Below the pieces are notes generated by a model. That model was not told the origin of the DNA and did not search any database. It worked only from the letters and a program-made list of their open reading frames with translations. A stretch of 5,857 nt of DNA from Bacteroidales bacterium (GTDB lineage Bacteria > Bacteroidota > Bacteroidia > Bacteroidales > ML635J-15), in the NCBI GenBank assembly GCA_028696755.1, contig JAQVGK010000241.1, forward strand, positions 1-5,857. Direction: 5' to 3'. The position numbers were made by a program, and so were the translations under genes. Positions 3,725-5,012 of the stretch are shown here, in pieces (position 1 is the stretch's first letter; each line of letters opens with the position of its first letter).

Positions 3725-4018
3725 ATGAAAGCAATAATGATAATATTTAACCAAGCTCTAACCGAAAAAGTAGAATACATGCTCGATAAGCTTGAAGTGC
3801 GTGGGTTTACTCAGTGGGAAGGTTTGCAGGGAAGAGGAAGCGTTGATGGCGATCCACATTATGGTACACACACTTGGCCCGAAATTAATTCAGCAACTAT
3901 TGCCGTTGTTGAGGATGAAAAGGTCGATGTCCTACTCGAAAAAATTCGCAAGATCGACGAAATCAACAAAGAAGTTGGTATTAGAGCTTTTGTGTGGAAT
4001 ATCGAAAAAGCTGTATAG
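3725..4018 (+). CDS. Small PII-like signalling protein encoded with the RND pump
   Basis: This is a 97-residue soluble protein with the size and alternating beta-alpha-beta / beta-alpha-beta pattern of the PII (GlnB/CutA-like) ferredoxin fold. Strand KAIMIIFN (2-9) is followed by helix LTEKVEYMLDKL (12-23) and strand FTQWEGLQG (28-36). A Gly/His-rich loop comes next (about 37-55, with GDPHYGTH), then strand SATIAVVED (56-64), helix 66-82 and final strand GIRAFVWNIE (85-94). The loop sits where PII proteins have their partner-contacting T-loop, and H45 and H49 could bind metal. It starts 12 bp after the pump stop, so it is translated from the same message. PII-like proteins encoded next to transport genes commonly bind and regulate the transporter, so a sensor/regulator of this pump is the best inference. 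No residue pattern proves nucleotide binding. The last codon and stop lie inside the 96-bp direct repeat that begins at 4013. Family assignment is from fold pattern and context. Confidence 0.8.
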   Translation: MKAIMIIFNQALTEKVEYMLDKLEVRGFTQWEGLQGRGSVDGDPHYGTHTWPEINSATIAVVEDEKVDVLLEKIRKIDEINKEVGIRAFVWNIEKAV

Positions 4019-4052
4019 GGTTTTATTTTTCATATAAAGTTGTATGGTAGTT

Positions 4053-4086
4053 AATCCGGGTAGGCATTGTGCTTGCTCGGATTTTT
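4053..4086 (+). terminator. Rho-independent terminator of the efflux operon (copy A)
   Basis: AATCCGGGTAGGCA (4053-4066) pairs with TGCTTGCTCGGATT (4070-4083), with a TTG loop and a few G-U pairs, giving a 14-bp stem. The stem runs into a T-run (4082-4086). It lies 34 bp past the stop of the PII-like gene and fits termination of plus-strand transcription. On the minus strand the same hairpin is not followed by a T-run, so it looks mainly one-directional. Confidence 0.8.
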
Positions 4087-4108
4087 CACAACCCTAATTC
4101 TGCCCTAA
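4086..4108 (-). pseudogene. Orphan copy of the 3' end of the YjbR-family gene
   Basis: Read on the minus strand this 23-bp piece gives R-A-E-L-G-L-stop. That is identical to the last six codons and stop of the intact YjbR-family gene at 4662-5012. It is carried here only because it is part of the 96-bp duplication. It has no upstream coding sequence in frame and is not expressed as a protein. Its value is as a marker: it shows the gene originally ended here, 67 bp from the PII-like stop, before the 480-bp insert separated them. Confidence 0.85.
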
Positions 4109-4112
4109 TCTT

Positions 4113-4129
4113 TCCCGACTTGTCCCAAT
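4113..4129 (+). repeat. Left terminal inverted repeat of the insert
   Basis: TCCCGACTTGTCCCAAT matches the reverse complement of 4572-4588 at 16 of 17 positions (C/T mismatch at the fourth base). It lies four bases inside the strict end of direct-repeat copy A, or directly against it if the one-base-gap extension of the repeat is accepted. Confidence 0.8.
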
Positions 4130-4276
4130 GAATTTTATTACAATCGCAAGTGTCTGAATATCAGCAACATGCTATTAGTAACAAATGTTTTTACCGCACA
4201 AAGGCAGTTCTTGTGAACTATTTCAAATAAATAATAGCTGGTCAAAAGCTAACAAAATCAGTCTTTTTTTACCCCA

Positions 4277-4317
4277 AACTTTTTTCCTTGATGAAAAAAG
4301 TTACAAAAAAATCAAGG
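4277..4317 (+). other. Pair of mutually exclusive hairpins inside the insert
   Basis: AACTTTTTTC (4277-4286) is perfectly complementary to GAAAAAAGTT (4293-4302), with a 6-base loop. The loop plus one stem base, CCTTGAT (4286-4292), is complementary to ATCAAGG (4311-4317). The two hairpins share bases and cannot both form fully. Both orientations would fold as RNA. No function can be assigned; it may simply be a subterminal palindrome of the element. Confidence 0.55.
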
Positions 4318-4343
4318 CAAAACGAAGCTACCCAACGCACCTC

Positions 4344-4470
4344 GAGACGAAACAAAAGAATTGTATGTCGACCTTGGCCTAAAACAAATGCCAAGCACCT
4401 TTGGCCAGTACTCAAATATTTGTTTTAGAAAACGACATGTCGGCTCGACACAATTCTAATTGTTTCGCTC
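4344..4470. repeat. Three-tier foldback (cruciform-like inverted repeat) in the insert
   Basis: The outer stem joins 4344-4371 to 4445-4470 through paired blocks GAG/CTC, CGAAACA/TGTTTCG, GAATTGT/ACAATTC and GTCGA/TCGAC, about 22 bp with small bulges. The middle stem is 11 bp and perfect: CTAAAACAAAT (4379-4389) with ATTTGTTTTAG (4418-4428). The inner hairpin pairs GCCAAG (4390-4395) with TTTGGC (4400-4405) around CACC. A 10-bp palindrome CGACATGTCG (4433-4442) sits in the 3' side of the outer loop. It could act as DNA (a transposase or cruciform substrate) or as a structured RNA; nothing decides between them. Confidence 0.7.
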
Positions 4471-4571
4471 TCACCGCTTGAGCTGCCCGCCGTTTTGCCC
4501 GGCCCTCCCGCGGAGCAATGAATCCTGTTTTGTCGCTTTGTACTCCTGATTAAAAAAAAAATAACGCACTA

Positions 4572-4588
4572 ATTGGGACAAGTCAGGA
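4572..4588 (-). repeat. Right terminal inverted repeat of the insert
   Basis: The reverse complement, TCCTGACTTGTCCCAAT, matches 4113-4129 at 16 of 17 positions. Its outer end coincides exactly with the start of direct-repeat copy B at 4589. Its outermost bases also pair with an internal TACTCCTGA at 4541-4549, so the right end can form its own hairpin. Confidence 0.8.
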
Positions 4589-4684
4589 GTATAGGGTTTT
4601 ATTTTTCATATAAAGTTGTATGGTAGTTAATCCGGGTAGGCATTGTGCTTGCTCGGATTTTTCACAACCCTAATTCTGCCCTAA
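4589..4684 (+). repeat. 96-bp perfect direct repeat, copy B
   Basis: Identical to 4013-4108. This copy holds the functional 3' end of the minus-strand YjbR-family gene (stop at 4662-4664, codons up to 4684), a second copy of the terminator hairpin, and an orphan copy of the last codon and stop of the PII-like gene at 4589-4594. Absence of any mismatch, including in non-coding bases, points to a recent duplication or to gene conversion keeping the copies equal. Confidence 0.98.
4629..4662 (+). terminator. Duplicated terminator hairpin (copy B)
   Basis: Same 14-bp stem, TTG loop and T-run as at 4053-4086. Read on the plus strand it would stop any transcription leaving the insert before it runs antisense into the YjbR-family gene. 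On the minus strand the hairpin directly follows that gene's stop but lacks a downstream T-run, so it would be a weak intrinsic terminator there, though it could still protect the 3' end of the message. Confidence 0.65.
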
Positions 4685-5012
4685 CTTTTTTTGGCAATTT
4701 TGAAACAACAAGCTCATACGAATGATCAATCAACTCCATAATCATCTCATCAGAAATACTTCCGTCGATTTCGATCTGATTCCACATTGTTTTATTCATG
4801 TGATATGCACCTGTAATTGATGGATAATGCTCGCGTAATTCAATAGCTCGATCGGGATCGCATTTTAAAACTATGTTAGTGTTTTTTTCGAGTGCCGAAA
4901 GTGCAAACATCTTACCAGCAACCTTAAAGACAAGAGTTTCTTCATCAAATGGGAAACATTCGGTAACGGCTTTTTTAGCTAGACAATAATCTCTAATAAT
5001 TTCGATATTCAT
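4662..5012 (-). CDS. MmcQ/YjbR-family protein (DUF419)
   Basis: This is a 116-residue soluble protein of the usual length for the MmcQ/YjbR family. Recognisable family features in order are CFPFDEETLVFKVAGKMFAL (19-38), the NIVLKCDPDRAIELRE block (46-61), HYPSITGAYHMNKTMWN (62-78) and the C-terminal helix with LIDHSYELVVSKLPKK. The family has a CyaY-like fold with proposed DNA binding, but its biochemical role is not established, so none is claimed here. The ATG at 5012 gives the normal family N-terminus. The gene converges on the efflux operon and diverges from era, with 62 bp between the two starts. Its last six codons and stop lie inside direct-repeat copy B, so the insertion event did not damage it. 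No functional link to its neighbours is evident. Confidence 0.92.
   Translation of the reverse strand: MNIEIIRDYCLAKKAVTECFPFDEETLVFKVAGKMFALSALEKNTNIVLKCDPDRAIELREHYPSITGAYHMNKTMWNQIEIDGSISDEMIMELIDHSYELVVSKLPKKVRAELGL

Follow-up and report, generated by a model that had tools for sequence, protein, structure and literature searches.

What brought a stretch of non-coding DNA, bracketed by two copies of one long direct repeat, into the junction between two convergent genes without breaking either? DDE transposases usually produce target duplications that are short and constant in length, one target being attacked at a fixed stagger, and a repeat of about 100 bp is of another order. We address the question for a 5,857-nucleotide contig of a Bacteroidales bacterium (the whole stretch analysed, hereafter the window). 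A first-pass annotation, made from the letters alone, had described a 96-bp perfect direct repeat around a 480-bp insert, had proposed a small element mobilised with a long target duplication by an IS1634-type transposase, and had suggested looking for an empty site in relatives, for other copies with their flanking repeats, and for a transposase gene with matching ends. The proposal is supported by matching ends, sister copies and empty sites, and we conclude, at a probability of roughly 0.93, that positions 4114-4587 are a non-autonomous transposable element (MITE) of the IS1634 type, presumably mobilised in trans and duplicating its target at length through gap repair.

The window carries, in order, a partial gene for an HlyD-like fusion protein and genes for an AcrB-type transporter, a PII-like protein (Pfam P-II PF00543, 36.6 bits against a cut-off of 25) and a YjbR-family protein (Pfam YjbR PF04237, 108.9 bits against 30.1), followed by a partial gene for a GTPase with a KH domain, which we take to be Era-like. 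The features at the junction between the PII-like and YjbR-family genes are as follows.

3725..4018, plus strand: gene of the PII-like protein, left neighbour, 97 aa, intact, its stop codon inside the left repeat copy
4013..4113, no strand: left copy of the target-site duplication, 101 bp, in which 4110-4113 (CTTT) matches 4685-4688
4053..4083, no strand: terminator-like hairpin of the left copy (AATCCGGGTAGGCATTGTGCTTGCTCGGATT), from a fold of 4013-4108, placed by its dot-bracket string
4114..4587, no strand: MITE-like mobile element, 474 bp, non-coding
4114..4129, plus strand: left terminal inverted repeat CCCGACTTGTCCCAAT
4275..4535, plus strand: structured repeat forming the core of the element
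4565..4572, plus strand: subterminal box CGCACTAA of the right end, possibly a transposase site
4572..4587, minus strand: right terminal inverted repeat CCTGACTTGTCCCAAT
4589..4688, no strand: right copy of the target-site duplication, 100 bp, the part from 4662 being the 3' end of yjbR
4662..5012, minus strand: YjbR-family gene, right neighbour, 116 aa, intact

Positions 4013-4108 and 4589-4684 agree in every letter, as first annotated, and 96 identical bases cannot be of chance origin. The core of that repeat stands as described and its extent had been drawn slightly short: once a single 1-bp indel (T4109) is allowed, the duplication measures 101/100 bp, and the absence of mismatches claimed for it is true of the 96 bp alone, since the longer repeat contains that indel (copy 1 ends in CCCTAATCTTT, copy 2 in CCCTAACTTT). 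In this form the repeat extends to the left inverted repeat at 4114, and a single unmatched A (4588) separates copy 2 from the right inverted repeat. Subtracting the insert and one repeat copy from the window leaves 67 bp between the stop codons of the PII-like and YjbR-family genes, the ancestral gap that had been reported. Because the duplication begins within the final codons of the PII-like gene and extends into those of yjbR, both genes keep their 3' end and a copy of the terminator-like hairpin, the second of which lies at 4629-4659 in the right repeat copy.

The length of 480 bp given for the insert needs correction: the element proper comprises 474 bp, its ends being set by the inverted repeats and by the point where the direct repeat stops. 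The earlier description lacked the terminal inverted repeats, in which TCCCGACTTGTCCCAAT (4113-4129) and ATTGGGACAAGTCAGGA (4572-4588) are 94% complementary over 17 nt. The longest open reading frame inside the insert is 65 aa (ORF listing, minimum 40 aa), and the same listing holds no IS1634-family DDE transposase frame within 4114-4587; we therefore file the element as a derivative served in trans and not as an insertion sequence (IS). It is short, has no transposase gene, and possesses terminal inverted repeats and a target-site duplication, as MITEs do, and the multiple copies that are expected of a MITE are present in a related genome (G002), in the form of 15 left ends. Its assignment to the IS1634 type rests on the agreement of its ends with those of an IS that encodes an IS1634-family transposase, described below. 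The AT-rich duplication of 5-6 bp that typifies the IS1634 family is absent from the window element, which has 101/100 bp instead; long duplications whose lengths vary between copies, the trait of a subset of the family (IS1634, IS1549), are found in this group of elements. The insert has no Rfam match, either at the gathering score or at E values up to 1, and no match was found for plasmid copies of the element.

Relatives of the locus were represented by 80 loci retained from a single contig scan with the PII-like protein (best 89% identity), whose titles point to Bacteroidales-like or other Bacteroidota assemblies, with a single Chlorobiota title (L031). Four of them keep the PII-like and YjbR-family genes in convergent orientation without the insert, which is the empty site that had been called for, with stop-to-stop gaps of 66, 98, 52 and 51 bp (L002, L004, L005 and L009, respectively). 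Around these four junctions there is no exact direct repeat longer than 9 bp (offset at least 30), and blast found neither the insert nor the 96-bp repeat in these first 80 relative loci. Since the four empty junctions have neither insert nor duplication, the lineage of the window gained both the insert and the additional repeat copy. One of the empty sites, L002, lies within G002, a genome with many copies of the element elsewhere.

A blast search for the insert in nine genomes drawn from the 80 relative loci returned 59 matches in G002 and 25 in G004, partial matches only in G003 (5), G009 (4) and G007 (1), and none in G001, G005, G006 or G008. Examination of 60 stretches of G002 and G004 revealed that copies in these related genomes are likewise bordered by long direct repeats, the outcome that the first-pass annotation had anticipated for other copies. 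The complete copy in G004 (L138) is 473 bp long and 86% identical to the window element (399/462 columns), and a diverged repeat of 99/110 bp (80% identity) touches both of its ends. A G002 copy is 88% identical to the window element (417/473). Many G002 copies are broken at contig ends, and we therefore compared 15 left ends with 15 outer right ends in all 225 pairings; 13 of the 15 left ends each have one right-end partner of their own, linked to it by direct repeats, with scores of 86-324 for these pairs against a best of 57 among the other pairings. The 13 repeats measure 167, 163, 149, 128, 122, 247/252, 92/91, 104/118, 73, 91/90, 60, 60 and 43 bp, are 76-100% identical, and stop no more than 3 bp from both inverted repeats. 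The left ends of L106 and L131 and the right ends of L111 and L137 are unpaired. L102, L103 and L104, the three copies found whole on one G002 contig, have flanks that do not match across the element and match the ends of other contigs instead, a pattern that we attribute to mis-joined contigs or to recombination among copies.

A transposase gene with matching ends, the remaining expectation of the first-pass annotation, was found in G002. The IS1634-family model NF033559 matched proteins in eight of the nine genomes, above its cut-off in five, and the end-motif pattern TCCYGACTTGTCCS (one mismatch allowed) yielded across the nine genomes one exact opposed pair flanking a transposase gene, of IS1634 type, on G002:C491, in a search confined to ends of this pattern as distinct from those of other families. 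This IS (L170/L210) is 1606 bp long, encodes a transposase of 496 aa (306.9 bits to NF033559, cut-off 100), and lies within a 143-bp direct repeat with one mismatch. Of the first 13 bp of the window element, 12 match its left end, the similarity stopping after 13 bp; at the right end, 21 of 23 bp match (the inverted repeat and the next 7 bp), and the subterminal box is common to both. Apart from the ends and this GCACTAA-type box, the interior of the IS is unrelated to that of the MITE. A second IS1634-type element of G002 (L163) has different ends and a 65-bp perfect repeat.

Long duplications also surround a share of IS1634-type insertions in the Bacteroidales. The 47 loci that we assembled represent 42 distinct places and are a sample, as part of them are loci for some of the 41 matches listed, with at most three candidates scored per genome. 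Among the 42 places, 17 have no recognised pair of inverted repeats, 7 have a flank shorter than 120 bp, and 18 could be assessed. Nine of the 18 lie in repeats of 35-390 bp that meet both ends within 2 bp (L163, L210, L231, L242, L243, L245, L248, L252 and L254), and in two a long repeat is present that lies 76 or 24 bp away from one of the ends (L216, L255). The other seven show no long repeat (L215, L227, L228, L232, L237, L246 and L249), the ends of L249 being doubtful, and in the full-locus flanks of the first six no direct repeat touches the ends, while L232 has 6 exact bp, the one case in 18 of an exact 5-6-bp repeat at the ends. These seven include the two closest relatives of the G002 transposase (L227, L228). 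The longest duplication observed surrounds the IS at L231, in a perfect 390-bp repeat with a GC content of 0.52.

Taken as an IS1634-type MITE, the window element would have been mobilised as follows. A transposase of this family in the window's host, supplied in trans, would recognise the element ends (CCYGACTTGTCCC and the nearby GCACTAA box); the two ends would each be joined to an AT-rich site at the PII/YjbR convergent junction, on opposite strands and about 100 bp apart; and gap repair of the region between the two joins would then produce the 101/100-bp direct repeat.

Other explanations account for parts of this evidence. A direct repeat by itself would fit a tandem duplication of the 96-bp junction in which unrelated sequence later filled or replaced the middle, and yet the repeat ends at inverted repeats that are common to an IS, the same layout recurs with other duplicated sequence at 13 G002 sites, one G004 site and the IS copies, and none of the four empty-site relatives carries the duplication, which together make such a history exceedingly improbable. 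We regard as very improbable that the flanking identity stems from ectopic recombination between element copies or from an assembly mis-join: the shuffled flanks of L102, L103 and L104 indicate that such events do occur among these elements, but shuffling removes matching flanks and does not make them, and the window flanks match each other while its neighbours fit the gene order of the four relatives. The chance is equally slight that the element belongs, as a MITE, to some other transposase family and that its ends resemble CCTGACTTGTCCC by coincidence. The matching transposase is indeed known from a related genome rather than from the window's own host, and the likeness of the left end is short; the right end, however, matches over 23 bp including the subterminal box, long variable duplications surround both the IS and the MITE, and the sole exact opposed pair of TCCYGACTTGTCCS ends around a transposase gene in nine genomes belongs to an IS1634-type element.

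The remaining alternative concerns the duplication length, and bears on where the insertions lie. The sites that could be compared for gene context number 17 (the 13 G002 pairs, the window, L170, L163 and L138; ORF-based gene caller, at least 70 aa). Their duplications hold a gene 3' end in 13 cases, a 5' end in two, and neither in two; eight of the 17 are convergent, with both gene ends within 20 bp, and none is wholly inside a gene (by midpoint, six are genic, six tandem, four convergent and one divergent). Random segments of equal length from the same genomes (220,163 bases, 400 draws) hold a 3' end at a mean of 1.5 of 17 sites (maximum 5) and are convergent at a mean of 0.15 (maximum 2); when segments inside a gene are set aside (200 draws) the means are 6.2 (maximum 12) and 0.49 (maximum 3), with 7.0 for 5' ends. 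Predicted coding sequence contains 20 of the 34 duplication edges, at 15 of the 17 sites, and no gene is interrupted at any of the 17, the duplication restoring the gene at each site with a coding edge. All lengths might therefore arise, with those long-duplication insertions surviving that lie at gene 3' ends and break no gene. Selection of this kind would be a sufficient cause of the position bias, and may account for the bias towards gene 3' ends wholly or partly. As the source of the long duplications themselves we consider it rather unlikely, since it accounts for the location of survivors and not for the making of a 35-390-bp duplication, and since an exact 5-6-bp repeat occurs at just one of the 18 IS sites (L232). 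It complements the explanation by IS1634-type transposition more than it opposes it.

The edges of the duplications carry a further regularity. We compared 24 of them (the 13 G002 pairs, the window, L170, L163, L138 and seven further ISs), in a scoring that ignored short repeats, the shortest of the 24 being 35 bp. T stands immediately before the left end in all 24 (flank T frequency 0.32), with the caution that the search pattern for G002 left ends included a leading T (four substitutions allowed), the ISs having been found without that T. TTT precedes the left end in 15 of 24 (background 0.05), and A follows the right end in 20 of 24. By hand count over the 20 sites whose repeat begins directly at the element, the base after the right end is A in 16, G in three and C in one, and the second positions of the edges are complementary as well, with G or A at the start and T or C at the end. 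The duplication edges are thus ARAA...TTYT, one motif read from either end. The six repeat-less ISs that were re-run likewise have T before and A after the element. AT-rich sequence prevails in most duplications (GC content 0.14-0.38 among the first 17, reaching 0.52 among the ISs), a composition that would be compatible with local melting of the target DNA.

One study reportedly found ISs that target REP palindromes. We considered recognition of a hairpin or terminator as the basis of targeting here and dropped it because the strong hairpin of the window is not common to the other 16 duplications, whose best local 50-nt folds range from -2.8 to -13.6 kcal/mol, against -21.6 kcal/mol in the window.

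Tentatively, the two ends in the Bacteroidales branch of IS1634 may pick their target nicks separately, each beside ARAA (read inward), on opposite strands and 35-390 bp apart, with looping or melting of the target setting the length and the reverse arrangement giving rise to deletions. If so, such deletions might explain the insertions that lack a repeat, and long duplications would permit entry into crowded convergent junctions with both genes unbroken. Quite apart from that model, the sites examined here exemplify how a transposon insertion that spans two genes can spare both. The 24 Bacteroidales duplications of 35-390 bp, their symmetric edges and a compact pair of IS and MITE make the question of mechanism accessible to direct test.

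Long variable duplications by IS1634-type elements, which the first-pass annotation invoked, have been reported before: the passages of a 2008 survey that treat them give 8-514 bp for IS1549 and IS1634 together, give 5-6 bp for other members of the family, and state that no mechanistic model had been put forward by that date (PMC2266710). The window element shares long variable direct repeats with IS1634 of Mycoplasma mycoides and IS1549 of Mycobacterium smegmatis. These belong to the same DDE transposase family as the IS with window-matching ends, the window element itself having no transposase, and they differ from the related Bacteroidales ISs, which have other ends (CCTGACTT, CCTGTTTT or CCTGAGTT). 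ISGka5 of Geobacillus, a typical member that bears the same family name, is described in the relevant passages with duplications of 5-6 bp (PMC2266710, PMC8024623), the latter source noting 6 bp for one family member. Among MITEs, Chunjie of Geobacter uraniireducens resembles the window element in being small and non-coding, with inverted ends, direct repeats and many intergenic copies, and differs in its length of 235 bp, against 474 bp here; the comparison follows a review's description and covers these features (PMC10969869). BrickBuilt of Porphyromonas gingivalis, also from the Bacteroidales, is a MITE-like element with another repeat trapped inside, as in the window; according to the portion of its report that describes it, it differs in its IS5-like ends, its duplications of 2-5 bases and its trapped repeat, a 23-nt minisatellite as opposed to a structured core of about 250 nt (PMC4596501). 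By title and the start of the abstract, no paper on a long-duplication MITE of IS1634 type in Bacteroidales was found in a search of the open-access literature, subscription journals lying largely outside it. As far as that literature tells, this kind of long duplication is already known, and what is new is the Bacteroidales-wide sample of 24, the ARAA...TTYT edges, the gene-3'-end bias at 17 sites, and the MITE.

The core of the element (about 4275-4535) is also dispersed in G002 and G004 without the inverted-repeat arms. It is a repeat of about 250 nt with covarying stems (L107, L116, L117, L121, L126, L128, L129, L135, L136 and L139-L160) and falls into two sequence subfamilies. An alignment of 23 copies has 48 consensus pairs, 16 of them with at least one compensatory change on both sides; 68 cells are changed on both sides against five on one side, figures that, given the two subfamilies, represent few independent events. 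The near-absence of G-U intermediates would fit a palindrome at the level of DNA better than an RNA. Beyond G002, at least five of 393 genomes of the order match the element at E <= 1e-10, all through core pieces of 52-60 bp, in a search that scored up to two candidates per genome.

Element copies also vary in structure. Small hairpins of 20-26 bp (for example, TTGGCTTCGCCGAGCTTCGG) are inserted in some of them, and L129-L134 form a second subtype in which the first ~179 bp are common and the sequence then diverges (TATTATATAACTAATTAATTTTCAAG...), the contigs stopping some 80-130 bp later. L102, L103 and L104 contain within the core a module of about 80 bp (ACACCGATTGTAAATTTGTAATAG...ACAAATTTATCATCGGCAC) that is missing from the window and G004 copies. 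At their right end a second, outer end repeat lies 39 bp past the first (GGACAAGTCTGGAG...GGACAAGTCAGGAG), and the duplication begins after this outer end repeat.
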